Source: Mesostigma viride
Lineage: Eukaryota > Streptophyta > Mesostigmatophyceae > Mesostigmatales > Mesostigmataceae
Assembly (NCBI GenBank): GCA_009746045.1
Contig: RPFO01000819.1
Span: 372,001 to 436,000, forward strand
DNA: 64,000 bases
Reading direction: 5' to 3'
Position 1 is the first letter of the stretch; every line of letters begins with the position of its first letter. Below the pieces are notes generated by a model that saw only the letters and a program-made list of their open reading frames with translations, ran no database searches and had not been told where the DNA came from. Made by a program: the position numbers and the translations under genes. This document shows positions 946 through 61,774 of the stretch, in pieces.

Positions 946-1150
946 TGCTTACAATCTCGATGCTCTCATATCATACATATCATATCACATATCATGTATC
1001 ACATCGTGTTGATGCCACATTACTCCCCACCAACACACCACCCTTCTCCCCCCCCCCCCCCCCCCCCCCTGCTTACAATCTCAATGCATGCTGTGACCAC
1101 ACCCACCCCTGCCCACCACCACCACACACACACAGCCACCCTACACTCAC
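946..1150 (-). repeat. Duplicated 5' splice-site cassettes in intron 2
   Basis: On the minus strand the real exon end GCATCGAGATT is followed by the donor GTGAGT at 1150. Two further copies follow: GCATTGAGATT then GTAAGCAG near 1070-1090, and GCATCGAGATT then GTAAGCAG near 947-962. Each extra copy is followed by a long G-rich run on the minus strand (poly-G, then TGGG repeats). Confidence 0.75.
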
Positions 1151-6600: not shown

Positions 6601-9086
6601 TCTTCCTGGTTCCTTCATAGAGTTTATATGGCAGGACCTGGAGGTGATGCTACAGTGGGAGGGATACCCCAGTAGTCGCAGCTTGCTACTATTATTAGGA
6701 CAGGATCTGCCGACTGGTTGGCTGGAGGTTGTGATAGCTTGATAAGATATTATTTTCACAGGATCTTGGGAATTAATCTGTCCCATTTTTCTCTCCTATG
6801 TCATAACAGGGTATGTGGGACCCGGGTGATAGGATTTTGGTTCCCAACCCCACCGTCCTCGCTACTCATCTTTCTCTCCGTGGTTGGAATGCCTCTTGTA
6901 GAAATCCTTTTTTTATATGTTGGAGGCGATTGTTGAGGCAATGCCGGCAGATTTCTGGGATTAGTCCAAATCCCAAAAGGCGAGAGGAGGCATGTCCGCA
7001 GGCATGCTTGTGGGAGTCGCGTTATCGCACCCCGAAAATTTGTTACCTGCAAGGTGGTGAAGGAAGTATTTTCTACCTGTGGGCCACTCCTATGCATTTT
7101 CTGCCTGTGGGCTTCTTCTATGCCCACGTTATGACCCCATCATGATTCGCGCACAAGTCAGCGTGCCTCGTGTTCGGGAACGTCTGTTAGTAACACGCCC
7201 TTGCCTTGGGTTGAGTAGCGCTGCGTTGGCGATTCGTGCCCCCGTTGCCTTGTTCGCTTTTCGTGCCCGGGATGCGTGCTTGCGGCGTCTGCTTCACAGC
7301 TGTGGTTGCTGCTGGCTTGTGGTGCCGTGTTTGCTACCCTGGTGGCGTGCTTGCTGACTAGGGGCGCCGTGTTTGGTACCCGTGTCGTGGATGGCGTGCC
7401 TGCTATCAGAACGTGGTGCTGCGCATGTTCGCTGTCCATGCCTGCCATGCCTCGCCTGCTGCCCATGCTTTCGATGCTGTGTTTGATGCTCGCGTTAATG
7501 ACGCTGAGTTTGCTATTCGTGTCTACACGCTGGGTTTGATGTGGATGCCTGCAGTGCGCATGACATGTGTCTGTCCACGCGTGCAATGTTTAATAATGGT
7601 TTTATTGTTTCGTGTCATCTCTTTGTCTGCCGTGCTGCAAGTCTGCTCATTCTTGCGCAGGTCGAGCTCTATCGTACTCTAATCTCTGGTACTCTAGTAA
7701 TCGTACTCTAGTAATCGTACTCTAGTAATCGTACTCTGCTCCCATGAACACGGGTTGAGCAATCGCGTTGATTGTATCAAGTGCGCTGCATTCCCTATGC
7801 CGTGGATGTGCCTGCGTAGGAGGTGCTGCAGTTTTGAATGTTCACGTCGTTGACACCGGGTGTGGGGAACTAATGCCCACTATGCACTTGGAATGCTGTT
7901 TAATCTTGGACTCTCGTTTGTTCTGGCGCAGGTCGAGCTGCAGCGGTCGCGTGAGCACACGCACGCCCTGCGCCGCGAGCTGCAAGGATGCTACGCGCGC
8001 GAGCTGGCGCAAAAGGAGCAGCAGCGCGAGTGGGCCAAGGCAAGGGAGGGGCTGCTCCACATGCGCAAGGTGGCGGCAGCAAGCAGCGCCGCAGGCACGC
8101 CGCTCACCCAGGTACGATCGTGGTACACCAATCACCATGCATCTTTTTGTTGGCCAACATCCGACATCATGGTGCATAAAGTTCAATGTCTGCACACATG
8201 CCAGTGCATGTTTTTTGTTTTATTGCGATTAGTGCGTGTGTTTTTTTACAGCAAGCACTTTTGGGGAGGGGGGTCCCCGAGATTTTACGCAACATCGGTG
8301 TAGTTTTCGATCATGTATCCTGTATAAACCCTTTCCGTGTTGGTCTTGTCCTCTGTTGTCTGTGGACCCCCCCTGGCTTGATCTCGTCTTCCCTTTTTGT
8401 CTGTGGTTCCTGTTCCCTGTTGCACATCCATCGTCCCACACACCGCCTGTCCCCCATGGCCCCCCATCTTCTGGCATCCGACATGGCCTGCTGCACCGCA
8501 CGGAGTGTTTCCCCATTCCCTTTCTTATATCCTCCCCCCCCCCCCCCCGCTTCCGCTCTCCGGATGTGCGCTGTTTTACCGACACACACGCGTGGTCCCA
8601 CACGCAAATTACATGCTGTGGTGGTTGATGCAGCGGACCAGTGGCACGGCGTCGCGCGATGCGCTCTCCCCCCCGTCACGGTCCCAACTAAACTGCGACG
8701 CACCCGCACCGTCCTCCGCGCCTGTCCACATGCGCCCCCCCGGGCAGTCCCCCATCGACGCGGCCAGGCCCCGCAGCGCGCACTCCTCGCACTCCTCGGT
8801 GACCAGAGCACGGCCCACAAGCGACCGGCCGTCATCCAGGAACAAGTCGATCAGCCCAGTACGGGGCGCGAGCGGGGCCACGCTGCAGCGGCAGGCGTCG
8901 CGAGATGATGGGAGGGAGGAGGTGTCGTTGGATGGGTTTATTGGGAGCCCCGTGAAGCAGCGGCCGGGCGGGCAGCGCCCTCGCACGCCCGAGTATCTGC
9001 GGATGGACGAGAGGAGCGAGTATCGTGGTCAGGGCAGCCGGGCGGTGCGGCCATCGCCGGCTGGGAATAGGAGCCAGCGGCGCTGA
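3698..9086 (+). CDS. Coiled-coil protein with acidic middle, four exons
   Basis: Exons are 3698-5916, 6360-6567, 7932-8111 and 8634-9086; phases 2, 0 and 0 agree at the three junctions and give 1,019 residues. The ATG at 3698 is the first in frame. Residues about 1-400 form a long, Glu/Ala/Leu/Arg-rich coiled coil with heptad character. A Gly/Arg-rich patch lies near 445-455, and a very acidic Asp/Glu/His stretch spans about 488-590. A second helical region follows, and exons 2 and 3 add more coiled coil. The last exon is basic, Ser/Pro-rich and probably disordered. No enzyme motif, signal peptide or membrane segment is seen. A structural or scaffold role (cytoskeletal, centrosomal or flagellar) is a guess from composition only. 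Stopping at the TGA at 5918 would be an alternative, but the GTGAGC there is a good donor and the downstream exons keep helical coding character. Confidence 0.7.
6568..7931 (+). other. Intron 2 of the coiled-coil gene with splice-edge copies
   Basis: The exon 2 end, GCAGGACCTGGAGGTG, recurs in the intron at about 6631-6647. The exon 3 start with its acceptor, TTCTGGCGCAGGTCGAGCT, recurs as TTCTTGCGCAGGTCGAGCT at about 7650-7669. A 15-bp unit containing ACTCTAGTAATCGT is repeated about four times at 7676-7735. Confidence 0.7.
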
Positions 9087-14756: not shown

Positions 14757-15026
14757 TCTGATGGGGATATAATCCTCCTCCGAGCTGTTGATCTACGTCC
14801 TCTGCTGTATAATGGCAGACGAGGCGGTAGTGCAGCAGCTATCCTCAGGGGCAATTACCTCCACCTGCGGACTTCTTCTCTGGCTACTAAATGGGCGTGG
14901 CGGGGACCGTAGAGAGACTAAAGAATCATACACTTCAGGAAGGTGCTTATCGCATATGGCAGCCCATTTCTCCTTGTCAATCATGCGGCCGTGGAGTACT
15001 GATAGTCCCTCAAGCCCGACATCCAC
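14757..15026 (-). mobile_element. Inverted LINE fragment with C-terminal coding sequence
   Basis: On the minus strand this encodes GLEGLSVLHGRMIDKEKWAA and then CDKHLPEVYDSL, followed by the family sequence ending GAGGATTATATCCCCATC. It matches the plus-strand copies around 12400-12690 and 15250-15360, so it forms an inverted pair with the copy to its right. The TTAC tail is missing. Confidence 0.75.
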
Positions 15027-15249
15027 CTAGCAGTCTCATCTGCATGTGGAGCGCCTCAGTGCCTCACCTGTGGTCATCCAGGGCATTACTCACGTGCGCG
15101 ACTGCCCCAAGCCCCTGAACATGCAGTTTCCACCCACGGCTTTCTCCCGTTCAACAGGCCACCGCCTGTTCAACCTGTGCCTGTTGGACATGCATCTCCT
15201 CACGGCGTCCCCACGGCCCATGACTAGAAGTCTAGCCAGTGTAGAAGTC

Positions 15250-15500
15250 CGCAGGTAGAGTTTATTGCCCCTGAGGACAGTCGCTACACTACCGCCTCGT
15301 CTAGCTGCCATTACAGTAGAGGACAGCTCGGATGATGAGGATTACATCCCCATCTAGTACTATGTGGTTAGGGCATGATGCAGACCGGACGATCTTTGTC
15401 TGTTTAATTTGTTTCAACTTTCTTGTAATTATATTTCTGATGAGATTAATTAGCATGTAGTACTCTGTGGCATGCCTATGCGCATGACACGTAAGTACTT
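15250..15500 (+). mobile_element. LINE 3' end, copy 3
   Basis: It begins with a CCGCAGGTAGAGTTTATTGC block, then GGACAGCTCGGATGATGAGG, and ends at CGCATGACACGTAAGTACTT. The order is the same as in copies 1 and 2. The tail is short, and no flanking duplication was found by eye. Confidence 0.7.
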
Positions 15501-16051
15501 GCTTATACCCGACCTACCTCCTGGGGTCACCAAGGGCGACCACGTACCAGATCGATGCAACACACAGGGTTCAGGCCCAGTTTCCAGTCCCAGCTATGTA
15601 CGGCAGACACCAATCCCAGCCCAGATCGAGCCTTCAGCAGGCAGTGATCAGCGCAGGATGGTTGAAACGCTCTGCTGCTGCATAATTACTTATGACACAA
15701 TGCACGCTTGGTTGATACAGCTAGTTTCAGCTGTGCCTTCTGCGCGGACCTTATGTACAGGTTCCAGCCATGGCCAACTAGTTTCAAGTTTCGATACCTA
15801 GTATCAACAAGTGAACAGGTGTATAGTACTCGTACGCACCACACTAACGTAGTGTACCTAGCCAGTTTCCGAATTACTGGCACCACTCTCTGGTAATCAA
15901 TTAATCGATCTGACCCTGGTCATAGACACCGCAGCCTTCTGCAGTTATATGTAATCCTTAAGTCGTGAGTGTTAAGCTTTTGCTCGATTGTCATCAATAA
16001 ATAAATGCCTCGCTACCATGGAAAAGAAATTATGACTGCCCCGTTAATGTA
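15501..16051. other. Intergenic, no gene recognised
   Basis: This is downstream of the stop codon (16052-16054) of the minus-strand gene, so its 3' untranslated region should lie here. ATAAATAAAT at about 15996-16004 is AT-rich, but I cannot tell whether it matters on the minus strand. Confidence 0.35.
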
Positions 16052-28200: not shown

Positions 28201-31200
28201 CATTTATTCAGTAATTGATATGATATGTATAGCCCATCTCACACCCGTAATTTATCATTCTCAATGAATATCTACATAGGCAAGCTTGCTGGAATAGAGA
28301 CACTGTGCAATGACAGCGAGATGCCTTGCTCAGCCAATACATAGACGGTGTGCAATGAGTTGCAGAACCTTCGAACCAGAATACATGGAGGCCCCTAAAG
28401 AAAAGAAAAGGACAAGAAAGCTCAAGATTGAGAGGTCGCTAAAAGAAAGGAAAGAAGGAAAGGGATAGAGAGGTCGCTGAAGAAAGGAAAGAAGGAAAGG
28501 GACGAGAGAGAGGTCGCTAAAGAAAGCAAAAGGACCAGATAGAGGGGTCGCTAAAGAAAGGAAAGAAGGAAAGGGATGAGAGAGAGGTCACTAAAGAAAG
28601 CAAAAGGACCAGATAGAGGGGTCGCTACAGAAAGGAAAGAAGGAAAGGGATGAGAGAGAGGTCACTAAAGAAAGCAAAAGGACCAGATAGAGGGGTCGCT
28701 AAAGAAAGGAAAGAAGGAAAGGGATGAGAGAGAGGTCGCTAAAGAAAGCAAAAGGACCAGATAGAGGGGTCGCTAAAGAAAGGAAAGAAGGAAAGGGATG
28801 AGAGAGAGGTCGCTAAAGAAAGCAAAAGGACCAGATAGAGGGGTCGCTAAAGAAAGGAAAGAAGGAATGGGACGAGAGAGAGGTCACTAAAGAAAGCAAA
28901 AGGACCAGATAGAGGGGTCGCTAAAGAAAGGAAAGAAGGAAAGGGATGAGAGAGAGGTCACTAAAGAAAGCAAAAGGACCAGATAGAGGGGTCGCTAAAG
29001 AAAGGAAAGAAGGAAAGGGATGAGAGAGAGGTCGCTAAAGAAAGCAAAAGGACCAGATAGAGGGGTCGCTAAAGAAAGGAAAGAAGGAAAGGGATGAGAG
29101 AGAGGTCGCTAAAGAAAGCAAAAGGACCAGATAGAGGGGTCGCTAAAGAAAGGAAAGAAGGAAAGGGATGAGAGAGAGGTCACTAAAGAAAGCAAAAGGA
29201 CCAGATAGAGGGGTCGCTAAAGAAAGGAAAGAAGGAAAGGGATGAGAGAGAGGTCGCTAACGAAAGCAAAAGGACCAGATAGAGGGGTCGCTAAAGAAAG
29301 GAAAGAAGGAAAGGGATGAGAGAGAGGTCGCTAAAGAAAGCAAAAGGACCAGATAGAGGGGTCGCTAAAGAAAGGAAAGAAGGAATGGGACGAGAGAGAG
29401 GTCACTAAAGAAAGCAAAAGGACCAGATAGAGGGGTCGCTAAAGAAAGGAAAGAAGGAAAGGGACGAGAGATGGGTCACTAAAGAAAGCAAAAGGACCAG
29501 ATAGAGGGGTCGCTAAAGAAAGGAAAGAAGGAAAGGGATGAGAGAGAGGTCGCTAAAGAAAGCAAAAGGACCAGATAGAGGGGTCGCTAAAGAAAGGAAA
29601 GAAGGAAAGGGATGAGAGAGAGGTCGCTAAAGAAAGCAAAAGGACCAGATAGAGGGGTCGCTAAAGAAAGGAAAGAAGGAAAGGGATGAGAGAGAGGTCG
29701 CTAAAGAAAGCAAAAGGACCAGATAGAGGGGTCGCTAAAGAAAGGAAAGAAGGAAAGGGACGAGGAAGAGACGCAGCCCCTACCATCAGCAACTTTTATG
29801 TTGCAAACCGCTATGCTGGCTATACCTTTGATGCTCCTGCAAGGAGGCTCCCACTCTGTAAACGCGGTTAATGAAATTGATGGAGAATGAAACGGGGGCG
29901 TAAGGATAAACCCCAGAGGAAGGCCTTGCCAGCAGTCACAGAGGGATGCCACCGACGTGCATGGAAAAAAGAGCTACCCCGTTTACAAGCAAGGGGGCAT
30001 ATAGTAAAAAAGGCAGGAACTGAGCATGGTTGGTTCAGTCAGCAAGACAACGCACCGCGCATCTACGACCTAGGCTCCGCACGGGCTACCCTGCGCGCCC
30101 CCCCGGTGGACACGGCGTTCGTGGGAGGGTGTGAGTCTAGAACTCAAGCAAGAGCAACTGGGCACGTCTTTCTCTAGCCACCGTCTCCTCTAGCCACCGC
30201 GCCTCCACACCCAACGCACCCCGCACTGTCTGGACCTTGTCATAACGGGCGGTCGTGAGCGCCGCCTCCACGTCACCCTGCAGGGTGTTCCGAGGATGCA
30301 CCAGCAGTCAGTACAATGCAGAAGTCAATACGATGATGACAATACATGCAGGATATTTAAACATGCAACAGCCTGCTGCATGTTTCAAGTTAGATGCAGG
30401 AGCCAGAGGCGGTGGGGACGTGGACATGCGCGGCCGACTATCCATGGCTAGAGAATGCTCCTATGACACCATCATATACTAATATACTATAATATACTAA
30501 AATACTATAGTATACTATAACAAATAAGGTAATATACTATAATATATAAGGTAATGCTACTATGCCACTAAAATTACCCTCTATTACTGTCACCAGCAGG
30601 CTGCAGGAGATCATGGAAGTGAGCTCACCAGGAGAGCCTTGAGTGTGTCCGTGGACGCCATGGCGCTCGGGAATCCGGCAGGAATCTGGGCGCCCTCGCC
30701 GCCAGCTGTAACCACCAGCCCTTCCAGCACATCCCCCGAGTCTCGGATACAGAATGCCACAGCATCGGGCTGGGTGCTCGCATCGGTGACGGATGGAGGC
30801 TCTAGCACGCTAGTCAGCACGGCCGCCTTCATGAGGAGGAGGAGGGTGGACGCCGCATGCTCCCGCGACTGGTGGAAGAGGTGCGGCAGATGGAAAACAG
30901 GCCAGTCGAAATGGGGCCATCCAAACTATACATTCTCTACGTCATGTCCCTCAAAACGTGGTCATAGGTTTTGCACACTGAGCACATGCATGCAACCCTC
31001 TGCGTGCCATGGCTTTATAAAACGAAGGCTGACAGGAAAAAACAGGGGGACATCAGGTTCCCTAGGATCACCCAGACTTGCCTAAAACCCAGAAGAGGTT
31101 TAGCAATAATAACACAAGCTTAGGCCACTACCCAAAGACTTAAGTGGTACTGAAAAAGCCAAACAAACTGAGGGCTCATACACAGATGCTAACATATATA

Positions 31201-34300: not shown

Positions 34301-37300
34301 CCACTACGGCGCACCTTGAAGATCCAGGATGGTTGGGGGGCGTCCGTTTCCCGATGGGAGGTGCCTGCCGCCATTACCGCGGAAACCGCGACCTGACCCA
34401 ATGTAGCAACACGAGGATTAGGAGGGGAGGCAAAAGTGTGGGGCAGAAGCTAAAAGGGTGGGTCAGAGCAGAGGGCGGGCCAAGCGTGGCTCACAGACAC
34501 TCCACCGAAGGAGCGTGGGGCAGAAGACACAACGATGCGCCCTCGGATCCTTGTCTATCGGAGCACGAGGCGGGCCTACCCAAGGAACAGGGGCATACAA
34601 GGCGGGCCAAGCATGGCTTTAAAGCGATCCTCAGAAAGTGTGGCCTCACCGGCGTGACTGACAGCATAGGAGCTACAGAAACATGACAAAGTGTGCATCT
34701 GATGGGCACGACAACGACTTGAAATATTTGGTTCAGCATGTGCGTCGCGCAGCCGGGTGTTTTATCGGCAAACAGTTGGTCAACCCTGCTCTGACACACA
34801 GTCGCTAAAGATGTGCCCAATGAAATGAGATGTTAAGGGTGAGGTGGTAGTCCTTGCGTGGATCATGGCCATGCCCAGACTTGGCCTCCTGGCCCCGTGC
34901 CCAGGTGCATGCTCCATCTTCCCTTCACACGCGACCACCTTTGACAGCCCAAAGCTCCTTCAAGGCAAGCCAACGACAACCCTTGGTAAGTACACTTACA
35001 TCGTCGTCAGAAAGCAACAAACGTGAAAATGCTAGCTGCCCAAATCTGAGATTCCGCGGAACACAGAAAGTAAGAAAGCCTAGAAGCTACCAGCAAGGAA
35101 TCGAACATAGGACCTTTGGCATGATTTCGCGGCTGTGTGAGTCTCCCGGTCCGAAGGCATCTCACTTAACGTTTCGAAACAGCCCAACTGCGAAAAGCCT
35201 CTTTACCGGAGAGGGGTGCCAATATGTCCGATATTGCTGAATCTATAGAAGATGACTTGGTAAGTACACTTACCGCATAATAAAACTCTATAACCCCTAT
35301 CGCATGATTATAATCACCGCCCTCACATTGGTCATCGTTGCCACCAGCATTACTTTTTCCTCCCCTTGGTCACTATAACCCCAATCGCTTGATTAATATC
35401 TCACCCTCACCTTAATCGTACTCAACACCAGGCACTACCACCACCAGCTCATCCCCTTGGTCACTATAACCCTTACCGCTTCATAATCACCTATAACCCC
35501 CATTGCATAACCATCTCACTCTCACCTTGGTCATCGTCGCCACCAGCGCAACCAGCTCCTCGCTGCAGACCGACGCCGTGTCCGGGAGCTGCTGCACCAC
35601 CGCGCCCATCAGCTAACGCATCAGATGCAGGCCATCATGGCAACCGCGAGGACAGCAGGGAAGTGGGGTGGGGCAAGGTTGACAAAGACGGGAGGGTGGA
35701 GAGGGGAAGATGCGTCAGATATGTGTGTTCAAGGAGGATGGGGGGCGCAGCGGCCCGCACGGTACCACCATGCAGTGCTTCTAACCACTGACAAAAGTCC
35801 ATGCATACTATGAAGGTGGCCCTGACGTCGGGGACCATGATACCACCAGGGCAGAAGGGGTGGAGGAGTGAGGATTGATGCTGCAAGATGCAAGCATCTA
35901 ACAGAACTGCAAGGCATTCTGAAAGGTTGTTCAGCACGGCCAACCAACACGACCTGCCCTTGCGCCCACCTAGGCGCCATGCCACCATTAACACAGGTTC
36001 ATGAATCTTCAGCATCCGCTCCATTGTGCTGCTCCGACAAACTCCTGCGTGCTCACGTGAACCGTTCTCGTTCTCCCGTCCACCCCAATCAGGACCACGC
36101 ACTCACCAGTGTCAGTATCAGAACCGATCCTGTGCCACACCCAATACATCACCGCAAAACACGTCCTTTCCTCCCGGCCACTCACTGTGGCGCACACGAC
36201 TCGAAGCGACGAGAACCCGTGGTAGCGTGCGAGGTAGCCCAGCAGCCGTAGGCGCTCGCGCCGCCCTCGCGGTGAGGCGCTGGCCAGTCCTGCGGGACAA
36301 TAGGTGCGGGACAGGTGGCGCGGGACAGGTGGCGCGGCCGATGAGGGGCACACAAAAGCGAGAGAGACGGGTGTGATCCGCTGGCCACTGTCGAGGGCCT
36401 TCGTCGGTGGCCCCTGCTTGGGTGTGTGCTGGCCAGGGGTGAAACTAGTTTCAGCAGTACTGGCACCCTCGCAGTCGCCGCGGACACACAAAGGAGAGGA
36501 AGGGGGGAAGGGGGAGGGGATAGGGGATGGGGGGGGGGGGGGGGGGCGGAAGGGGGCAGGCGTGGCTCCTGGGTGCTCTCATGGAGGTGTTGGCCAGGCC
36601 CCTGCAGATGTGCGGCTTGGGGCACGCAGATGTCTTTGATTCACTTACTCGATCGCTCGTTCATTGGCTCCCTTGCCGGCGTTGGATGTCAAACTGCTGA
36701 CGATATATCTGAAGCCTCTGCTGACTACGCATGCTTCCACTTCAAATGTGATTCATTACCGGTGCATTAATGCAGCACTAGTTTGCTGTAATACAAGGCA
36801 TCGACGCGTCAAGCATGCCACGCCAGACCCCCCTCTCAATAGGGGATGCCTTCTGTTGAGAGCATCTTTCAGGAATGCACAATTGCATTATCGACCAAAA
36901 AAGAGTAAGGGATAATGGAATCGCCATAGTGCTATGCAGATAATAGATATGAAGCTATATATATTGTTTACTAACGCAGCAACCTGTTCTTCACACATGT
37001 TTAGTAGTCGTGCCTGAGCGGATTGGAGGGAGCCGAAGCAACGGTTGTGTGCACATACCAGCGACGCATTCCCGAACTGCTGCTGGCAGCTGGGAGGCAG
37101 GCAGACACTGTGCGAGGCTCCGCCCTTGTTCAGCGGCTTGTTTCTGGACAAAATGGAGGACACGAACCCGCACAGAACGGACTAAGTGATTTGTTTGCCG
37201 GTACGAGTGCGTGCTGCCGTTCCCTACTCCTTTCCGCTTGCTTGAGGAACATGGTATGGCAATTATGGGAATATTCGGGAACTATTACCGTCAAATCCTT

Positions 37301-38121: not shown

Positions 38122-39173
38122 ATGGCGGGTGCGTAAGATGTTCTCTATTACTGGCTCGCATTCATCCTTCTCTCTGTAAATTGCTAGCTTTCTTTTCCGT
38201 GTACAATCGATGATGGTTTTGCCCGCGCATGCCTGCGTGTGTAACGAATTTTAGCAAGAAATGTGTAGTGCGTAGGCCGCTGTATCACTTTTTCTTGGGG
38301 GATTGCATTCTTTAGAACGGGAGATATTGTCATCAGGGCTGTGTTAGGCCTCCTAACTGCACATCTACTTTTCGTAATTCTTATAACTTGCGTAGCTATT
38401 GGGCGAGGAGGCTTGCCTACGGATGGTTCTCCAACGTGACTAGAAACGCCCGCCCGCCCGCTGAGCTTCGCAATCGCACATGGAATCGTCCACCAACGCA
38501 CGGTATTTCTTTTCTCGGAACGGTAATTTCGCTTGCTGCCACCACATGCTGATGCCTTGCAGACAGTAGCAGCGACCTGCTGGGGAACTATGACTCGCCG
38601 GGGACACCCGCGACCGAGCAGACTCCCCAAACAAATCGACAACGAACGAGGGGCGTGCCGGGCTCAAGCAGCCCGGTCGCCGCCCGTGCTAGAGCTGGGG
38701 CAGCTCCGGGGAGCAGCCAACCAGCGAGTGTCCCCGACACGCCCAACGTGCCCGGGCCTGGGAGCGGCACGGGTTCCCGGCAAGGATTCCGTCCGAGCAT
38801 GGGAACGCCGGTGACCCCCTCTGGGCGGCCCCGGGCGTCCACATCTCCGCTCTCTTCTCGTCAGCGACACCGATTGTATCCTGGAACATAGTGACCTCTT
38901 GCCAAATGGATAACATTTTCATGCTTCATCCTGTCATGTATAGTACTACCAACCGCTTCAGCGACACCAGGGAACGGAAATATTATGCCTCTAGCGTCAT
39001 CGCTGTTCGTGCACGACTTAAGTGTTGCGTTCAGCATACAGCGTATTGGCTGTTGGGACCATGCCCCGAATAATCAACGTGCACCTCTAGCACATGTGCA
39101 CAGGAGTACCGTTAATTTTCACTAGTAGCCCACGTTAGTCCTCCCTTTTTGATGCACTGCTTCGCAAGGCTCT

Positions 39174-39205
<32 letters not shown>

Positions 39206-42200
39206 CACACACACACACGCACACACACCCAGACAGCTGACCAGCCTATCATGGTGCATAAAAAGTCACCCGCTTCATCATTGCCTGGAGATCGTTTCGT
39301 TGCACAAATACGGCAAGTCAACCATGCGTTTCAATTCAGACTATCCTTGACTCCGGCTATGAACCCTCTGGGTGAACCTCCACAATCCCCGATCCTCGTC
39401 CACGCTCTCCAACACCATGCCCAACCCTTGCCCCACCGGCTAACGTTCATATATGTATGAGCAGGAGTGGCAACCGGAACGACCTGCGCAGGGGCAACGG
39501 GGACCGCGTCTATCGGCCAAGGCCGTCCGAGGGTATCCCCCACACTGGAGCGGATACGTCCCCCCCTCCCACCAGCGGTGCGCCCAGCCAAACCGGGGGG
39601 GATGATGACGAGACGCCCGCCGCATTCACGCAGACGTTTGTGTGGGGCACGAATGTAAACGTTGAAGACACGATCCACAAGTTCGAGCTCTTCTTCAACA
39701 ACTTCATGGACAAGACCACGGCTGAACCGCTGTACCCGCTGCTGCTGGAGGAGGTGGGGCATTATTATTTGAAATGAATTTATTATTTGAAATGAATTTA
39801 GAGTTGAGTGCTTTAATTGGAAGGACTGCTTTTGCGTGGCAAATATGGAAGTTGGGCTGCGAGTTCTTGGGAACTCTTGTGAGTGCTTTGAGCCTGTTGC
39901 AACGTAGAACAGTGTAGGGCCTTGAACCACCCTGTGCATCCCTTGGTGCTACGCAAAGGGTCAGGCGCGGGCATGGCGGTACCTGTTCCTCTACAAGGAG
40001 ATGAGGCATAGCCATTTCTGCCCGCCATGCCATGTGTGCGTCCATGGGTGGTCGATGGGACAGTGGTGACGATGATTTGGCTCTTGCTCGCGCGTTAGGT
40101 TCCTTTCTTCCCCCTCGGTCCCCTGGCCCCCTTTCGACTCCCCCAACGTGACCAGCTATATCAGGCACATTGGTTCATGCTCTGCCTGGATATAAACATA
40201 GGTTTCCTTTCCTTCCTCTTTTGGTCCCCCCCCCCCCCCCCCCCCCCCCCCCCAAATCTTAAATCTCCCACCCCGCTGTCGCAGCTGGACGAGACACAGC
40301 GGTCGACCCTCAACCTGGACTGCCGCAACCTGCACGAGTACGACAGCAAGCTGTACGACATGCTCGTCAACTACCCGGTGGAGATCATCCCCTGCATCGA
40401 CGTGGCGGCCAATCGCGTGCTGGAGACCATTTTGCAGAAGGAGCCCACCGCGTCGATCAAGGTGGGTGTTTTACGGCACAGCTTTTATGATGGGGGCCCT
40501 GACAACAACAACACTTTAGTGTAGCCGCAATTGAGACCATTTTTCACAAGCCCGCCACATCCTTCAGGGTAGGTGCGCTGCTGGATTATATTGGTTCAGC
40601 GGCTGGCTATCCGCTATGTTCTTGGCATTATGGTTGTGTCTATCTTCTTGTCATTATGGTTGAAAATTTGTAGCATAGTAGTAGTGGGTCCGTGGAAACT
40701 AAACGCGTGTTGGCAGTGCAATATATCTGGAAAGTGTATGTGCTGATGTGCTCACTCTCGCAGGGTGTCTTCCCGGGATGACCCGTCCTGATGCCTTGCT
40801 TCCCTTGCGCTCACTGCTTGCAACCCTGCAGGTTCACCCCTTCAACCTCATTTCCCCTGTGAACCTGCGAGACCTCAACCCCTCCGGTATGTGGCTGCGT
40901 CACCGTTATTAGTCTCAGTAGTTTATTGTTATTATTATTATTATTGTTGTTATTATTGTTATTGTTGGTCTCCGTGAGGGCCACAACTTGCGTCTCTGCC
41001 CTAGCACTTAGTCTGTGTTAGGTGCAACACGTGGACTTGCCTACTTCTAGCAGTCAGCACCATATATGATTTGCTAGGGGCTGCAAGCATAAACTAGAGT
41101 GGTCTACCTTGACTCCTACTGCACCTTGTCATGGTGACCGCTCTCTGCCATCTACCTTGATTGTGTGTGCCGCATGATGCAGACCATTTTGTCATGCCAT
41201 CGCCCGCCTTGCCACAATCTAGATGCATCTACACCCAGACATCGAGACGCATGTCTGCATCACAACCCCCCCCGACATAGGGCGCTGACTTGCTTTCCAC
41301 AATATGTGTCGTGTCGCCTCCATAATATTTATACTCTGATTTTCTGATTTATGATACGCCTGTCATCCATCCCATTCTGGTCCTCTGGCCCCCAGACATC
41401 GAGAAGTTGGTCTGCATCAAGGGCATGATTATCCGCGCGAGCCCTGTCATCCCGGAGCTGAAGCACGTCGTCTTCCGGTGCAACGTGTGCGGCAAGTGCA
41501 CCGAGCCGGCGCAGGTCGACAATGGTGAGGACTAGTGCTGGGCATGGGAATCTCACTGTGGAAAGGGTATAGTGCGCCGCCGCAGGGGGACAACGGGGAT
41601 GGGACGTGGTGAAGGGAGCGCGGTGGGATGGGACAGCAGGGTTGGTCAACATAGTGATTTTGCCAACCCTAAAGGACAGGAAAGTGTGGGATGGGACAGG
41701 AAAGTGTGGGATGGGACAGGAAAGTGTGGGCGCGGTGGGTGCTGGGGTACAGGCGAGCGCACGGGGCCAGCGCTGGTTGACAATGGGAAGGGGGGGCGCT
41801 GTGAAGGCAAGGGGAAAAGTCGCTGGATAGGACTAGGGAAACGGGGGTTCGAAAATGGGGGGTGTGGGGGAAGTGAAGGCAGAGAGTGAAGGGAACGAGG
41901 TGAGGCAAGACGATGGTGAGCTCACAGGGGTATTCTCTACAAGGCTTTGCTTTCTCCAACTCCAGAAGGATCTCACACCAGGGTGCTTGTCTGCTTAATC
42001 CACTGTTGAGCCCATCGCTTCAGCCGGTTCGGTTTCTGTATCAAACGGATTTTGTTTATCACTCAATATCCGCCCCTTTACTGCCCCTGCGTGTCACCCC
42101 GTCGCCCTTGTGCCGTCCGCCAGGCCAAGTCCACGAGCCGCGCCGGTGCCCTGAGGAGGAGTGCCGCGCGCAGCAGAGCATGGAGCTCATCCACAACTAC

Positions 42201-45200
42201 TGCAAGTTTGCCGACAAGCAGCTGGTGCGCATGCAGGAGCGGCCCGAGTCGATCCCTGACGGGGAGACGCCCCACTCGGTCACCATGTGCGTGTTTGACG
42301 AGCTGGTCGACGGCGCCATGCCAGGCGACCGGGTGGAGGCGACGGGCGTGTTCCGGGCGATGCCCGTTCGTGTCAACCCCAACCAGCGCACGGTCAAGTC
42401 CATCTACAAGGTGGGTGGGTGCTGACGTCCGTCCCTGCTCTCGCACTGGCTCATGCATCGGTGTCACCAGACATACCTGGACGTGGTCTAGGACAGTGTG
42501 TTTTGATGCGGATAAACTGATATGGCCCATTCCTGCTCTCGCACTGGCACATGCATCCGTGTCACTAGACGTACCTGGACGTGGTCCGGGACAGTGTGAT
42601 TTGATGCGGAGTAACTGATATGGCCCATTCCTGCTCTCGCACTGGCTCATGCATCCGTGTCACCAGACATACCTGGACGTGGTCCAGGACAGTGTGGTTT
42701 GATGCGGATAAACTGATATGGCCCATTCCTGCTCTCGCACTGGCTCATGCATCCGTGTCACTAGACGTACCTGGACGTGGTCCACCTCAAGAAGAACGAC
42801 AAGAACCGGTTGATGGCGGAGGATCCTGACATGGCGGCGGCGGAGGGCAACGAGAGCAACGAGTTCTACCCGCGCGTGCGCGACCTGGACACCACCAAGC
42901 GCAACGCCGAGGAGAAGGTGAGTGCCCCCCACGCGCTAGTATCATGTCTTGAGCCTGGCTATCGTTTCGTGTAATGCCATCTAGACGCCACGAAGCGGGA
43001 TGCTGAAGAGAATGTGAATGTTGAGTGTCAGGAAAGCATGTGCGCCAGATCAGAGTTGAGTGTGATTATCCTAGTAGTAAGCGTTTGGCATCATGAACAG
43101 TGCTTACTGTAGCATGTGGCCATGGTCATCGATCATCATGCATCATGCATCTGTGTACGCTTCTATATTCGAGAGCTGTCATAATGACCGCTTTTTTCGC
43201 CTGCAGCTCACCCTGTGGCCCCTCATCCTGTGGTTCCTCTCTCGAACTGGCATCCTTGCTCACGCTGATGCCGCCCTCGCCCGCTTGCAACCCCCCAGGC
43301 GCGTCGCCTCAAGGAGATCTCGCAGCGGCCCAACATCTACGAGGAACTGACAGAGTCGCTGGCGCCCTCCATCTGGGAGCTGACTGACGTCAAGAAGGGG
43401 CTGCTCTGCCAGGTGAGCGCCTGTTGGAGCATGACAGCCGCTAGAGTCAACAGTATCTCAGAGATGTACTCCTTTCTTCGTCGAGAAGGGGCTCCTCTAC
43501 CAGGTAAAGGCATTATAATCAGGCTAAGGAATTGTGACTACAGTGAATGTATTGTTCGGTAATATACCCCTTATGTTGTCATGGACGGGCTCCTCCGCCA
43601 GGTGAGGCCATCGTAAAGCCTAGCTAGTCCTAATGTGATGCACGATATAGTGGCGTGCCCCTTCCCTCATGAAAAAGGGGCTGCTCTTCCTGGGCCCTAA
43701 AGCATCCGTCTCTTGTATTTACTCGGGATAACAGTATACCCCTTACTCCTCGCGATGTCAAGCCGGTGCTGGCTGTATCATGGTTCCATAGTGGCCACTG
43801 TGCCATAGTAATGTCAAGCCGGTGCTGGTTGCATCCAGGTTCCACCACTCACGCACAGTCATGGGCTGGCATCCATTCACGTGATGTAATTACCAGCTTC
43901 ATTCCCGACCCCTCACACCCCACTCCCCCCTGGCTGAAACAACCGCGTGTGAATGTCCGTCATCGGCCCCCATATACTCCCCTCCTCCATCCCCAATCCC
44001 CCCCACCTTCACACCACACTGCAGCTCTTTGGCGGCACCAACAAGGACTTCTCCGGCGTGACAGGTGCTGGCAGCGTGCGCGGCGAGATGAACGTCCTCC
44101 TCTGCGGAGATCCCGGTACCTCCAAGTCCCAACTCCTCCAGTACGTGCACAAGATCAGCCCGAGGGGCATCTACACGAGCGGGCGGGGCAGCTCCGCGGT
44201 GGGCCTCACCGCGTACGTTACCAAGGACCCTGAGACCAAGGAGGCGGTGCTGGAGAGTGGCGCGCTCGTGCTGAGTGACCGCGGCACGTGCTGCATCGAC
44301 GAGTTTGACAAGATGAGCGAGGCGGCGCGCAGCATGCTGCACGAGGTGAGCCCAGTATGCTGGTAGTAGGCCACTAAGCTAGTTGTAGGTTGTATGGGAT
44401 TTAGGAGAGAAAGTTCGTGTCTGGTTTTGCTATGGAGCATGCAATGGGGGACAGCAGGTGGCTCAGTGATGCTGGCAATGCTGTTGTTAATTGGTTAAAT
44501 TAAGTGGCCCAGGTTGACAAGTTCTTGTGGGAGGTTTTTCTGTGCCTTAAAGATGAGGAAAGCCGTGTAACCGGACTTCTATCCGCAAGATTGAGCCCTT
44601 TTTATGCTCGGGCACACGTAATATAAATTACATCGTGCCATGTTAACAACTTTTACTACGGGCTTGGCCCGTCATACTTGTCCCCCTCACCCCTTTATCC
44701 CAGGTCATGGAGCAGCAAACCGTATCGGTCGCCAAGGCAGGCATCATCTGCACACTCAACGCGCGCACGTCGGTGCTGGCGTCCGCCAACCCGGTCGACA
44801 GCCGCTACAACCCACGCCTCTCGGTTGTCGACAACATCAAACTGCCCCCCACGCTCATGTCTCGTTTTGACCTCATCTACCTGGTGCTGGACAAGCCCGA
44901 TGAGGCCAATGACAGGCGGCTGGCGCGCCACTTGGTCTCACTGCATTTCGCGGAGGCCGATGTGAGTGGGTTGATGATAGGCCTCGAGTTGCTGCCCGCC
45001 TATTGTGGCCTATTGTGGCCTATTGTGGCCTATTGTGGCCTATTGTGGCCTATTGTGGCCTATTGTGGCCTATTGTGGCCTATTGTGGCCTATTGTGGCC
45101 TATTGTGGCCTATTGTGGCCTATTGTGGCCTATTGTGGCCAGTTGTGGCCAGTTGTGGCCTATTGTGGCCTATTGTGGCCTATTGTGGCCTATTGTCTCC

Positions 45201-48200
45201 TATTGTCTCCTGTTGTCTCCTATTGTCTCCTATTGTCTCCTATTGTCTCCTATTGTCTCCTATTGTCTCCTATTGTCTCCTGTTGTCTCCTATTGTCTCC
45301 TATTGTCTCCTATTGTCTCCTAATGTCTCCTGTTGTTGCCTAATGTTGCCTAATGTTGCCTATTGTCCTGTTGTTGCCTTTTGTTGCCTGTCGTTGCCTG
45401 TTGTTGCCTGTTGTTGCCTGTTGTTGCCTGTTGTCGCCTATTCTTGCCTAATCTTGCCCATTCTCGCCCATTCTTGCCTATTCTTGCCTATTCTTGCCTA
45501 TTCTTGCCTAATCTTGCCTAATCTTGCCTAATCTTGCCTACTCTTGCCTATTCTTGCCTATTCTTGCCCATTCTTGCCTATTCTTGCCTATTCTTGCCTA
45601 TTCTTGCCTCATCTTATGATGAGTATGTCCATATATGCATGCGTGCGGTCCCCTGCCATTTGCGCCCATTCAAACAGATGGCCAAGCCCCCGATTGACCA
45701 GGCCACGCTGGCGCAGTACATCTCGTACGCGCGAGAGCACGTGCACCCGGTGCTGTCAGACGCCGCTGCCGAGGACCTGGTGATGGCGTATGGGGAGCTG
45801 CGCATGATGGGCAGCCACAAGAAGGTGGGGGGCATGCACAAGCACTGTACTATTCTACAGAGTATTATACTAAAGTGTACTATACTATAGTGACCCCCAC
45901 GCGCGCAGCAGTAGCGCGCACATGCACTGCACCTCGCACCCGTGCCCTTGCCTTGTTAAGTAGCCATCTCATAGTACCGTTTGGTCAGCTGACACCATGA
46001 ATGCATGTACATTGGCATCCGCGCAAAAGCTGGGCTATATATCTCTTATCTGCGTCGCTTTGGCTGGCTCATGATTCTGTACTGCTGTGCATTATACGCA
46101 CTTTGCCAGATCATGTAGTCAAGATTGCCCCTGACTCTAGGCTGCTTGGCTGGCCACAACTACCAGTGCATGTTCATTCGCTCCTGAAATTGACCCGCGG
46201 TGGAATCCAGGTCATCACCGCCACGCCCCACAACATTGTGGTCAACCGATGCCATGCTCATGTGGTTGTTGTCATTGCCAATCTAAATTGACGAGGCGTC
46301 GGCAGGCCACAACTACCCAGTGCATGTGTTTACGTGCTCCTGTGGATGATGTGGCCTATCATCCAGGTAATGTAGTCATCATTCCTAATTCTACATTACT
46401 TTGCTGAACCACAACAACGTAGTGTTTGCATGCTGTCGTGGATGACGTGGCATATACTTCAGGTGATCACCGCCACCCCCCGCCAGCTGGAGAGCCTGAT
46501 CCGGATCTCCGAGGCGCTGGCCAAGATGCGCTTCGCCGACACGGTGGGTGCTCCTGCCATCCCACCATCCCACCATCCCACCATCATGCCATCCCACACC
46601 ACTAGTACTTAATAGTTTGTGCGCTTCGGGGTGTTTGCTGCCATCCGTGGTGGGGTTCTCAGGAGTGTGGGGTTGTGGGTAGCTAGAAAAGTTTAGAAGG
46701 CGGCTGCTGCGGTCACCCCGCTTTGTCCAGCGAGTTGTTGGGAAAGCAACTACTGGGGTGGATGTTATTGTGAGGAAGTCTGCTTCCTGAACAGATATTT
46801 GTGTGTGGCATCAGCCCACCCCCCGTGCATGCCGCAACGTGCACCCATTTCAATGCCATGATGGCTTCCCTCCAATCCCTTGACAAACCGTGACAACGAA
46901 CTGCAATTTCGCCCAAACCTCCCCCCATCGCATCCTCCCCTCCTGCCCTCCCCCCATATCTCCCCCCTCCCCCATTCCCCCCCCCCCCCCCCCCTCCGCA
47001 GGTCGAGCGTGAGGACGTGGCCGAGGCCCTGCGCCTCCTGCGCGCGGCCATGCAGCAATCGGCGACCGACCCCACCACGGGCACCATCGACATGGACGCG
47101 ATCATCACGGGGACGAGTGCCAGCAGCAGGGCGCGGAGGGAGGAGCTCAAGGCGCTGCTGCGGCAGGTGGTCATGGACTTGGCGCCGGGGGCATCGCTTG
47201 GGGTGAACGCGGTACGTGCGCGGAAACACATGTTCACTAATGATGTGGAGTCATCCATGGGGGTGAACGCGGGTGCATGAAAATGGACTTGATGTGGCAT
47301 TATCGGTCTGGATAATCATTACCCAGAGAAAATCCTGCGTGCTTTGCTGTAAAGTGATTGGTATAGTGACTGTGTGCTTGCACATATGATCCCTTTCTAC
47401 TGTATGTGCTCATGGGCCTGTCGTTCATATCTTTTAGCATGTGCTGTGATTAGAGGCCGTTCATGTAAATCTTCCAAAGGAATAGTTCCATAGGTCCTCT
47501 TACTGTCCACACTTGATAGAAACAAGTGAGGGAAAAGGCCTTCAGCTGCATCAGGTGTCCATAGGGCCTCCTTTGAATGGCTTGTGGCTTGGGTGTCGAC
47601 GATAAGGCTACTCTAACACGCTCCAAGGTGATGAAAGCAGATGCATTTTCCTATCCCGCAATTCGAATTCCAGCAACAGGAGATTGAAGACCAATGTCCC
47701 TCACAGAGCAGAGCTTTCACCCTTGCAATGCTGTTGTCCCTGTCGTCATCAGCAGCTTCCTTCCTACGTGTGCAAGAAATAACATTCTTTCTTATGCTCG
47801 TGCTCGGCCCTGTGTGCCCACCGGACTCCTGTACTTGTCACTATACCGTCGGTCACTCTACCATGGGTCACTCTACCTGTGGTGAACAGCTCAAGGAGAG
47901 GCTCAAGGCGGAGCATGGGCAGGAGCCCACCAACAACGAGGTGAGCGGGGCGCCGTGGTTTGGCAAGCAACAGCTGATCCGTAGCCAGCACAAAGCTGTG
48001 GCCAGTGATCGTATTTAGTGATGGTACCACAGTGATCGTATTTAGTGATGGTACCACAGTGATCATATTTAGTGATGGTACCACAGTGATCACATTTAGT
48101 GATGGTACCACAGTGATCACATTTAGTGATGGTACCACAGTGATCACATTTAGTGATGGTACCACAGTGATCACATTTAGTGATGGTACCACAGTGATCA

Positions 48201-50170
48201 CATTTAGTGATGGTACCACAGTGATCACATTTAGTGATGGTACCACAGTGATCACATTTAGTGATGGTACCACAGTGATCATATTTAGTGATGGTACCAC
48301 AGTGATCACATTTAGTGATGGTACCACAGTGATCACATTTAGTGATGGTACCACAGTGATCACATTTAGTGATGGTACCACAGTGATCACATTTAGTGAT
48401 GGTACCACAGTGATCACATTTAGTGATGGTACCACAGTGATCACATTTAGTGATGGTACCACAGTGATCACATTTAGTGATGGTACCACAGTGATCACAT
48501 TTAGTGATGGTACCACAGTGATCACATTTAGTGATGGTACCACAGTGATCACATTTAGTGATGGTACCACAGTGATCACATTTAGTGATGGTACCACAGT
48601 GATCACATTTAGTGATGGTACCACAGTGATCATATTTAGTGATGGTACCACAGTGATCACATTTAGTGATGGTACCACAGTGATCACATTTAGTGATGGT
48701 ACCACAGTGATCATATTTAGTGATGGTACCACAGTGATCACATTTAGTGATGGTACCACAGTGATCACATTTAGTGATGGTACCACAGTGATCACATTTA
48801 GTGATGGTACCACAGTGATCACATTTAGTGATGGTACCACAGTGATCACATTTAGTGATGGTACCACAGTGATCACATTTAGTGATGGTACCACAGTGAT
48901 CATATTTAGTGATGGTACCACAGTGATCACATTTAGTGATGGTACCACAGTGATCACATTTAGTGATGGTACCACAGTGATCACATTTAGTGATGGTACC
49001 ACAGTGATCACATTTAGTGATGGTACCACAGTGATCACATTTAGTGATGGTACCACAGTGATCATATTTAGTGATGGTACCACAGTGATCACATTTAGTG
49101 ATGGTACCACAGTGATCACATTTAGTGATGGTACCACAGTGATCCTATTTAGTGATGGTACCACAGTGATCACATTTAGTGATGGTACCACAGTGATCAC
49201 ATTTAGTGATGGTACCACAGTGATCACATTTAGTGATGGTACCACAGTGATCACATTTAGTGATGGTACCACAGTGATCATATTTAGTGATGGTACCACA
49301 GTGATCACATTTAGTGATGGTACCACAGTGATCATATTTAGTGATGGTACCACAGTGATCACATTTAGTGATGGTACCACAGTGATCACATTTAGTGATG
49401 GTACCACAGTGATCACATTTAGTGATGGTACCACAGTGATCCTATTTAGTGATGGTACCACAGTGATCATATTTAGTGATGGTACCACAGTGATCATATT
49501 TAGTGATGGTACCACAGTGATCACATTTAGTGATGGTACCACAGTGATCACATTTAGTGATGGTACCACATTGATCATATTTAGTGATGGTACCACAGCA
49601 TGGAGATGTGGCAATTTATTCATGGGTCCACACATCCACAGATGGGGGGGTCACTGCCATGGTGTGGGCTCTAGGCTTCATCTCAAGTCAGTACCAGGCC
49701 TGCATGACCCCTTGAAATGTTTTCGAGCCGGCACTGCATCTCTCCTTGATTGCAAGGCATGGACGGCGGCTAGGCGTAGCGGATTGCAAGCAAAAGCTTG
49801 GCAAACAATCCCTGCCCATCAGCTGGTCGCTTAGCAATTTTATATCAAGGAGACAAGCAGCATAGGCATAGCAGCGTTTACTTACTCGTGTCGTTCTTTT
49901 TTGCAGCTGCCAATGTCAGTTTGAGACCCAGAATTTGGGAGTCTGGCCCAACTAATGGGGTTGCATTCGCAAAGCATAGCCGTGTTCCTGGCTCTTCCCA
50001 TACTTCATTCCATGACTCATTCTTTCTTTGCCTGCACGCTCGCGCCTGCATGCTTGTTGTCCCTGGCACACCCCTGCGTGATGACCCACCAGATGTGGGA
50101 GGCGTTGCAGCAGCTGTCCAAGGAGGAGGACGTGCAGTTCTCCCACGGGGAGGTCCGCAAGCGGCTCTAA
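38122..50170 (+). CDS. MCM4: DNA replication licensing factor MCM4, minichromosome maintenance helicase subunit
   Basis: Sixteen exons: 38122-38128, 38563-38875, 39465-39753, 40285-40461, 40832-40886, 41396-41524, 42124-42410, 42765-42917, 43299-43412, 44025-44345, 44704-44961, 45678-45824, 46463-46543, 47002-47211, 47890-47940, 50093-50170. All phases agree and give 889 residues (human MCM4 has 863). MCM4 is part of the MCM2-7 ring that unwinds DNA at replication forks. Residues 1-140 are Ser/Pro/Thr-rich with SPGTP-type sites, as expected for kinase-regulated MCM4 tails. Zinc-binding cysteines include CNVC (309-312) and RCPEEEC (331-337). Walker A is GDPGTSKS (536-543), Walker B CIDEFDKM (598-605), and the arginine finger SRFD (668-671). 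The C-terminal winged-helix part ends [23 protein letters not shown] and PRQLESLIR are typical of MCM4. The 7-base first exon and the junction after exon 2 are the least certain. Confidence 0.95.
39178..39232. repeat. (CA)n microsatellite
   Basis: A CA/AC run with small interruptions lies in the second intron of MCM4. Confidence 0.95.
40226..40253. repeat. Poly-C run of 28 bases
   Basis: It lies about 30 bases upstream of the MCM4 exon 4 acceptor, in place of a usual U-rich tract. Similar C runs precede exon 14 (46979-46994) and lie upstream of exon 4 of the coiled-coil gene (near 8527). Confidence 0.95.
42437..42764 (+). repeat. 98-bp tandem repeat carrying a 3' splice site and start of exon 8
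   Basis: GCTCTCGCACTGG starts at 42437, 42535, 42633 and 42731, an exact 98-bp period. Each unit contains GTGTCAC(C/T)AG followed by AC(A/G)TACCTGGACGTGGTC, the first bases of MCM4 exon 8. Only the fourth continues into exon 8 (from 42765); the first three continue into non-coding sequence. Confidence 0.95.
43480..43695 (+). repeat. Three degenerate copies of the exon 9 end in MCM4 intron 9
   Basis: The real end is AAGAAGGGGCTGCTCTGCCA, then G/GTGAGC at 43412/43413. Copies: GAGAAGGGGCTCCTCTACCA then G/GTAAAG at 43503; GACGGGCTCCTCCGCCAG then GTGAGG at 43601; and GAAAAAGGGGCTGCTCTTCC at about 43671-43690, which has lost its donor. Confidence 0.85.
45001..45610 (+). repeat. 10-bp tandem array, about 60 units, in MCM4 intron 11
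   Basis: The array starts as TATTGTGGCC (to about 45190), becomes TATTGTCTCC (to about 45325), then TGTTGTTGCC-like units, and ends as TATTCTTGCC (to about 45608). Unit sequence changes in blocks along the array. The period of 10 keeps all three plus frames open for long stretches. Confidence 0.97.
48005..49597. repeat. 27-bp minisatellite, 59 copies, in MCM4 intron 15
   Basis: The unit is GTGATCACATTTAGTGATGG followed by TACCACA. The array is 1,593 bp long, exactly 59 units, without a single indel. Variation is almost confined to one or two bases (CACATTT, CATATTT, CCTATTT, CGTATTT). Two palindromes, GTGATCAC and TGGTACCA, sit in every standard unit. The length is a multiple of three and both strands are stop-free in one frame, giving spurious open frames of over 600 codons. 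Confidence 0.98.
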
Positions 50171-60224: not shown

Positions 60225-60530
60225 GACGCCCCAGGCCTGGTGATCGTCTCCTTTGCACCTTGCGCTGGTGGACTTTATCAAGGCCTTGGACTCGGAGTTC
60301 TGGTCTGCGTTGTGGCACATTCTGGCTCTGTTCCGGATTCCTGCGCCCCTCATGGCGGTCATACACAAACTGTATGGGGTCCAACACCTCGGTGCGCACT
60401 TCGTACAGCTAGGTGCGTCCACGCCCCCATGCCCTTTCCAAAAGGAAGTGTGGCATGCGCAAGCCCTTGCAAGGCTGCGTGCTCTCGCCATACTTGTTCA
60501 TCCTTTGTACGTGGTGAACTACGTGATGAC
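60225..60530 (+). mobile_element. Reverse-transcriptase fragment of a LINE-like element
   Basis: LVDFIKALDSEFWSALWHIL and IPAPLMAVIHKLYGV (60262-60390) match the first conserved reverse-transcriptase blocks (DFxKAFDS...L...GIP...I..LY). After a frameshift, QGCVLSPYLFIL (about 60463-60498) gives the next block. It is broken and short, and probably a different family member from the relic at 10960. Confidence 0.7.
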
Positions 60531-61774
60531 CCTTGGAAGCGCGCAAGAGTTTTGCTCGCGTGAAGCGTCGCACAACGGTCCGAGCCCCGCAAAAAACGAC
60601 CATCTTATTCCGTCACCAAATTGGCGCGAGATCCCGAAAATCTGGTGTGCGGGATGGTGTCGACAAGGCCAAAAGTCACGCAGCACCCATGGCGGCCGTG
60701 AAAATCCTAGTGGCGGTTTTGAGAACACATTAAGGAAAGTGAATGCACTTTAAGCCTTCATGACTCATCTACTGAACGTAGATATTTTTTTATCCTAAAG
60801 AAATCGGCCCATTTTTTCAGGAAAACAGAAAAAGGGCGGGCATTTTCGCGATCGAGGTCGGGTCAGGGCCGCTGCATTTTGCAGTGGACCCCAAAAAAGT
60901 CACACCGGAAACTTATCGAAAACGGCGACAGTGCAGCACGAGGTAAGCCGCTCGCACGATTCTATGACTAATTCAAAAATTTCTGACCGAAAAACTTTTT
61001 GTTAAAACGACTGCCATTGTAAATGCTGCGATACCGCAAATTACCAGGTTGGCCAATACGTCGGTACGTCAAATACGTCGGCCTCAAAATACGAGTATTA
61101 TACGCGGAGCATGGCAGAATACGTCACCAGAATACGTGGCAGTGTGCAGCATGGTTATGAATGGGCCTTTAGGGTTTAGGCCTTAGGGGGAATAGTTATG
61201 CATGGAGATCAGTACATTATGGTGGAAAGCATAATTTAATCTGCACCATTCCTTGCACTTATTCCCCACCAGCCTGCCATAAATTTTTAATGCAATATGT
61301 GCATATTCCTTGCACTTATTCCCTACCAACCTGCCACCATAATTTACCCATTACTGCATGTGCACATTCCTTGCAAGGATTTACTGTGCATGCCAAGTCC
61401 GGGAGCAGTGATCAGCCCTTTGTACTGACTAAGGCCGGCAATCATCGCCTTGAAAGAGCGGCTCTGAGCCGCGTGAAAGGAAATAGCATTCTCAACAAAG
61501 AAATTCACCAACAGGAGATGGCATTCCTCCTCGTCATATGGGGCTCACAAACCTCGTGATTGTCTGCTGGCGAGGATCTCCTGCACCTGCCGACCCCGAA
61601 GCAAGGCCGTGGCCGCTCTCCGCCATTGTCCTGAAGCTAATGTGCTGCTGCTTCCTCGCCTTCAGCCCGGCCTTCTTGCTCCACAACTCCTGGAATTCTA
61701 ACCTCCGTTTCTGCCCAATCTTTGCGTCAGGGCAAGCATCTATGCCCTGCCCTGCGATGCCCGCAAAATGTGCG
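60531..61774. other. Intergenic with small repeats and a coding-like scrap
   Basis: ATTCCTTGCACTTATTCCC occurs at about 61248 and 61304, a 56-bp tandem duplication. On the minus strand at 61770-61545 a stop-free stretch reads QKRRLEFQELWSKKAGLKAR with a downstream stop. It looks like the end of a coding region cut off by the repeat boundary at 61775, but I cannot name it. Confidence 0.4.

Follow-up and report, generated by a model that had tools for sequence, protein, structure and literature searches.

Worn copies of exon edges and their splice sites in the adjoining introns of MCM4 and other housekeeping genes of Mesostigma viride

Introduction

Tandem duplication is well documented as a source of introns in the accessible parts of two papers (PMC3443670, PMC2891723). 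In the model of intron gain by tandem genomic duplication (AGGT) treated there, signals resembling splice sites are duplicated and a new intron takes its two ends from the copies. Gao and Lynch (2009; cited in PMC3257199 and PMC2809761) treat internal gene duplication with intron creation, which is likewise a local duplication within the gene that may include splice sites and, to judge from the title of that work, concerns the creation of introns. An excerpt of PMC2809761 describes new introns of Drosophila whose splice sites are overlapped by repeats. Direct repeats, 4-30 bp long and located at or close to the borders between introns and exons, have been reported by Rogers and Bendich (2025, PMC11782384); in the available text, the 5' border is compared with the 3' border and the repeats are read as traces of intron insertion. 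Introners and other transposon-made introns, in the available portion of PMC9860276, rapidly change the intron content of whole genomes.

In this study, we describe an arrangement in Mesostigma viride that is related to these systems and can be distinguished from each of them. For about a third of the sampled exon ends, the adjoining intron contains a worn copy of the end together with its splice site; such a copy is called an echo below. Splice-site-like signals are duplicated as in the AGGT model, but both copies lie near one end of an existing intron, and the 5' and 3' intron ends do not stem from one duplicated stretch. Whereas the title of Gao and Lynch speaks of intron creation, the introns studied here already exist and acquire worn copies of their own edge, and the protein stays the same. 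Unlike the border repeats in the available text of PMC11782384, echoes are copies of one border, lie about 40-360 bp away from it, are often repeated and were judged against shuffle and cross controls. They share with introners, as presented in the accessible part of PMC9860276, a rapid genome-wide change of intron content, but the echo spacers, searched in 255 kb, gave no common inserted family. Array behaviour of the kind known from minisatellites and intronic tandem repeats is common to introns 7, 9, 11 and 15 of the gene studied here; unlike in minisatellites, the echo unit spans an exon edge and one of its ends would be held by selection.

The mutational process is known; what is unusual is how densely it occurs at exon edges. 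The original prediction, made for the MCM4 gene, knew of no named genome trait of this kind. The openly licensed literature, in the parts that were accessible, likewise yielded no description of worn copies of one exon edge in the adjoining intron as a frequent trait, the duplication process itself being well known.

Materials and Methods

The genome assembly has 2243 contigs with a total of 440 Mb, in which the window, namely the whole stretch of 64,000 nucleotides that was analysed, corresponds to C2000:372001-436000. The non-MCM4 gene models in the window were predicted from reading frames and splice consensus. For each MCM4 exon edge, a query made up of 60 exon bases and 10 intron bases was matched against the intron of that edge, and the controls were 300 dinucleotide shuffles, the other edges and the other introns.

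MCM-family genes were collected at six further loci on other contigs, and protein matches together with splice rules were used to set the bounds of their introns. Among 27 neighbouring match pairs, 16 introns were kept and 11 pairs were discarded owing to wide gaps, the lack of a junction or weak sites; two of the kept introns (MCM6 13000/13942 and MCM5 13282/16358) are less certain. The assignment of each locus to a particular MCM paralogue is putative and based on similarity. The CCT-family sample consisted of two genes (L052 and L054), whose edges are the ends of profile matches, so the junctions are putative. The gene sample as a whole covers housekeeping genes picked by convenience.

A uniform test was applied to all sets, in which an edge was scored as positive when the intron side had, no more than 400 bp away, a copy with a score of at least 27. 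Tallies of identity along the copied unit cover 28 of 29 echoes, MCM5 16435 being excluded.

Results

The rebuilt MCM4 gene model encodes 889 aa and has 15 introns, all GT-AG, and its protein matched solved MCM4 chains with a best E of 4.8e-221 (Table 1). Eight of the 15 introns bear echoes. The original prediction had named introns 4, 5, 7, 9, 12 and 14, and all six echoes were found where it had placed them; its count of at least six introns was exceeded, since introns 6 and 8 added two echoes that had been overlooked. The array in intron 7 occupies nearly the whole intron and stops 20 bases into exon 8, so that it contains three acceptor echoes and the true acceptor. The 22 other MCM4 edges, out of 30, were without an echo at a score of at least 27.

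Table 1. The MCM4 gene and the exon-edge echoes of the window (window positions).
Feature	Position	Strand	Match or remark
MCM4 gene	38122..50170	+	16 exons, rebuilt model and match to solved MCM4 chains
MCM4 exons 1-6	38122-38128, 38563-38875, 39465-39753, 40285-40461, 40832-40886, 41396-41524	+	
MCM4 exons 7-12	42124-42410, 42765-42917, 43299-43412, 44025-44345, 44704-44961, 45678-45824	+	
MCM4 exons 13-16	46463-46543, 47002-47211, 47890-47940, 50093-50170	+	
MCM4 intron 4: copy of exon 4 end and donor	40533..40575	+	34/46 aligned columns, one 3-base gap
MCM4 intron 5: copy of exon 6 acceptor and start	41234..41262	+	25/29
MCM4 intron 6: copy of exon 6 end	41752..41786	+	28/35, GT lost
MCM4 intron 7: tandem array	42434..42784	+	98-bp unit, 3.6 copies
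MCM4 intron 8: copy of exon 8 end and donor	42981..43020	+	30/40
MCM4 intron 9: exon 9 end and donor, echo 1	43479..43505	+	
MCM4 intron 9: exon 9 end and donor, echo 2	43578..43606	+	
MCM4 intron 9: exon 9 end, echo 3	43672..43693	+	GT lost
MCM4 intron 12: exon 13 acceptor and start, echo 1	46208..46229	+	
MCM4 intron 12: exon 13 acceptor, echo 2	46326..46371	+	chiefly intronic side; narrower match at 46342-46371
MCM4 intron 14: copy of exon 14 end	47252..47272	+	18/21, p=0.0066
Gene 2 (coiled-coil), intron 2: donor echo	6631..6646	+	16/16
Gene 2, intron 2: echo of acceptor at 7931/7932	7650..7668	+	18/19
Gene 1 (DUF7897 gene): echo 1 of donor 1151/1150	1072..1091	-	
Gene 1 (DUF7897 gene): echo 2 of donor 1151/1150	948..963	-	

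The MCM4 introns have further repetitive content. Intron 11 (44998-45609) consists mostly of a tandem array with a 10-bp unit in 61 copies, and intron 15 (48003-49598) mostly of one with a 27-bp unit in 59 copies; neither includes an exon edge. At 41171-41191, intron 5 carries a 21-base sequence that nearly repeats part of exon 4 (score 27); it is the single cross match of that score described below. A search for MCM4 relatives in viral contigs gave eight pattern matches, none of which was confirmed.

The comparison with controls demonstrated that the matches are not accounted for by low complexity alone. Seven of the eight echo-bearing edges scored above every shuffle (p=0.0033, the floor of the test), and the score of 27 at the remaining one, the intron 14 donor, was reached by one shuffle. 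At a score of at least 27, 8 of 30 MCM4 edges matched their own intron, vs 1 of 420 pairs with other introns, the single cross match being that of the exon 4 end with intron 5; at a score of at least 28, the corresponding values were 7 of 30 and 0 of 420. All 12 of the matches between MCM4 exons and flanking introns that scored at least 25 span the junction. Copying from any part of an exon was ruled out, as none of 109 exon-interior windows of MCM4 matched the flanking introns at a score of at least 27 (three reached 24-26).

Echoes were also present in two of the three further genes of the window, the third having none in its two introns. Tandem repeats are abundant in the window, with 72 rows when overlapping rows are counted. 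At distances of up to about 400 bp, direct repeats amounted to 59 pairs with a score of at least 26 (2846 query windows), vs 2 inverted pairs and 4 and 6 pairs in distant controls; they fall off with distance and have no preferred spacing. A preferred unit of about 96 bp, suspected by eye, was rejected because the lag spectrum has no peak and just declines with distance, and template switching with inverted copies was ruled out by the lack of a surplus of inverted pairs.

Several other repeats were observed in the window. A 74-bp tandem array at 28430-29764 (18 copies at 97%) lies outside the modelled genes, and two inverted stretches at 12401-12864 and 14722-15505 are 68-72% similar. Judged by eye, the reading frames near 11976-12482 and at 60244-60753 resemble pieces of a non-LTR reverse transcriptase. 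Identical 18-bp direct repeats at 34982-34999 and 35256-35273, which are non-exonic, flank a 256-bp spacer that is in part similar (74%) to L006:4667-4769; this pair may be the target-site duplication of a short interspersed element. No tRNA genes were found in the window.

The effect recurred at unlinked loci. In the uniform test, a copy was detected at 8/30 edges of MCM4, 3/13 of the other window genes, 11/32 of the MCM paralogues and 7/16 of the two CCT-family genes. Pooled over ten genes or members of gene sets, these are 29 of 91 edges with their own intron, compared with none of 91 for inverted copies and 1 of 1311 for cross-set comparisons. Counted per intron, at least one echo was present in 19 of the 38 introns of MCM4 (8/15), the other window genes (2/7) and the MCM paralogues (9/16). 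The echoes sit near their own edge, at 40-362 bp from it, rather than at the other intron end. When whole introns were searched, 9 of 32 MCM-paralogue edges reached a score of at least 27, and the cross rate of 6/480 was above that of MCM4. Seven of these nine matches have ends that plainly cross the junction, the MCM7 9218 donor being counted apart; its match stops 11 bases short of the junction in the whole-intron comparison and crosses it in another alignment. Among the CCT-family matches, that of the 414 acceptor starts within the exon. The self-alignment of introns with their edges, against shuffled and other-intron controls, thus gave an excess of own matches at MCM4 as well as at the further loci. 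Because of this recurrence, a similarity no better than in controls, which had been named as the outcome that would speak against the idea, is so far contradicted on the sampled genes. Contig C2011, which has MCM-profile matches, contains a Cpn60-like frame of 554 aa and a proteasome-family frame of 190 aa, both single-exon, and may be bacterial.

Identity between the copies was tallied on the two sides of the junction. The exon part of the 28 echoes was identical at 550 of 633 bases (0.87), intron bases 7-20 at 256 of 384 (0.67, vs 0.54 in shuffles) and intron bases 21-45 at 421 of 664 (0.63, vs 0.56). A higher identity of the exon part is the expected order, because both intronic copies drift. 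The intron side reached a z of at least 2 in 19 of the 28 echoes, a z that counts the first six splice-site bases too, and stayed below 2 in nine. Homology over the whole unit was clear (z above 6) in intron 7, MCM6 13000, MCM7 9218 and 10100, and CCT c and e. In introns 4, 5 and 6 and in both gene 2 echoes, intron-side similarity was far below that simulated for equal decay (27-34% divergence), and the equal-decay model was rejected for introns 4, 5 and 6 and gene 2. In MCM6 12188, 33 identical bases are followed by 11/25, which simple decay does not predict. The exon parts of the MCM4 echoes are all at most 39 bases long; under uniform breakpoints, the probability that all eight are at most 43 bases is 1e-4 to 6e-3. 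Among the window's 59 direct pairs, some of which come from long arrays, 51 match across less than 80% of their offset. By eye, homology picks up again past an insertion in MCM7 and past simple repeats in gene 1.

In ten MCM4 echo copies (intron 7 excluded), 13, 9 and 25 bases, each out of 82, were mismatched at codon positions 1, 2 and 3, respectively, and the excess at position 3 over positions 1 and 2 was significant (p=0.0019). This excess fits a neutral copy next to a constrained exon, since position 3 would then change in both copies; it would also fit an echo that was formerly coding.

Young duplications were found as well. Intron 7 of MCM4 is a plain tandem repeat that includes the junction. 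At a CCT-family donor in L054, a copy at an offset of 96 bp is identical at 47/49 bases in the best match, with 29/31 in the exon part and 45/45 of the first intron bases at that offset; a second young CCT-family case has a 40-bp unit. Two CCT-family gene copies, L052 (C1641:60501-68500) and L053 (C887:341101-349700), which are compatible with either alleles or a recent duplication, are about 96% identical where aligned. They differ by eight indels of 4-60 bases, five of which copy adjacent sequence at 75% or more, including duplications of 43, 18 and 7 bp (the 43-base one at 42/43); the 4- and 5-base indels lie within C- or G-rich runs. Therefore, adjacent duplication is recent or ongoing. 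One of the two copies has a 3.1-kb stretch that is lacking in the other.

Discussion

Recurrent local tandem duplication across splice junctions probably explains the echo set as a whole. According to this mechanism, short local tandem duplications, with units of about 40-360 bp, would be frequent in the non-coding DNA of this genome, and a duplication over a splice junction would give two copies of the exon edge and its splice site. The inner copy would turn into intron and decay, and the outermost copy would be frozen by selection, because only its use keeps the protein unaltered. Repeated rounds would then result in degenerate arrays, longer introns and leftover decoy splice sites. As the frozen copy provides a recognisable reference, echoes would stay visible for longer than duplications lying wholly within an intron.

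Several of these elements were observed: the junction-spanning direct copies occur in surplus over the controls at several unlinked loci, and both young full-length tandem cases and tandem insertions that differ between near-identical gene copies are present. We infer that the older, broken cases share this origin, with the intronic half lost to later indels and further duplication, and that the outer copy is retained by selection at the protein level. The proposal that introns lengthen by old and repeated tandem duplication across junctions is therefore supported by the young tandem and the older worn cases together. In its simplest form, the duplication model holds for the young cases, which are full units, but not for introns 4, 5 and 6 and gene 2 intron 2, where the intronic half was undetectable. 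This missing homology may be due in part to later insertion and repeat growth, and in part to insertion with target-site duplication or to re-copying from the frozen exon edge.

The last of these possibilities can be extended to a reading in which exon edges are frozen anchors, where slippage or short unequal exchange restarts between the edge and its echo. We put this forward tentatively, as a conjecture that is rather doubtful at present. Since one copy is functional and invariant, the echo would stay similar for longer than two intronic copies do, and exchange would therefore keep restarting. If this is true, exon edges would act as a self-renewing engine that extends introns from their ends and refreshes the echo, as in MCM6 12188, and that keeps up a steady supply of decoy splice sites across the genome.

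A different origin, insertion with target-site duplication or the filling of a staggered break, would copy a target of 15-45 bp around an unrelated insert, so that the edge copies merely flank the insert and the tandem unit never existed. The abrupt ends and unrelated spacers in introns 4, 5 and 6, gene 2 and MCM6 12188 agree with it, as does the non-exonic pair at 34982/35256 with its identical copies and a spacer containing a repeat-like stretch; moreover, short direct repeats border 43% of gained Daphnia introns in the accessible part of PMC3443670. However, the young cases are full tandem repeats, some intron-side similarity persists in 19/28 echoes, and most echo spacers have no relative in the 255 kb of genome searched (the window plus 191 kb). 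Matches were obtained for 3 of 18 spacers, namely one in gene 1, that of the non-exonic pair and one in intron 12, the last with its own array, and no shared inserted family was seen among the spacers within these 255 kb. Insertion is thus unlikely as the general origin of the echoes.

The echoes might also be functional and retained by selection; they could, for instance, serve as decoys or regulatory splice sites that lead to unproductive transcripts. A GT or AG in the same register is kept in 10 of 13 MCM4 echoes, and the predicted use of the echo sites would introduce a premature stop in 12 of 13, the exception being intron 14, where it would add 60 bases in frame. Additionally, the exon-derived part can be far better kept than the adjacent intron, even between intronic copies (MCM6 12188). 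Against these points, codon positions 1 and 2 have about 13% mismatch (22/164) and position 3 about twice as much, which fits a neutral echo; the retention of 10/13 dinucleotides is close to our estimate of what decay would leave; and the phenomenon is scattered over unrelated introns. A functional role for the echoes is accordingly improbable.

Chance or low-complexity matching has next to no probability and is refuted for the echo set as a whole, because the 29/91 own matches stand against 1/1311 cross-set and 0/91 inverted ones, and against the shuffles, despite C-, G- and CA-rich introns and the few cross matches of the MCM-paralogue set (6/480); single weak echoes (intron 14, MCM5 16435) could be due to it.

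The echoes call for caution in gene annotation, because spliced aligners and gene predictors will meet near-perfect false exon ends. The lengthening of introns is usually inferred indirectly, and echoes probably show one route by which introns can grow and acquire decoy splice sites. Since a constrained reference adjoins each echo, dated junction-anchored copies allow the duplication rate, the decay and the fate of new decoy sites to be measured.
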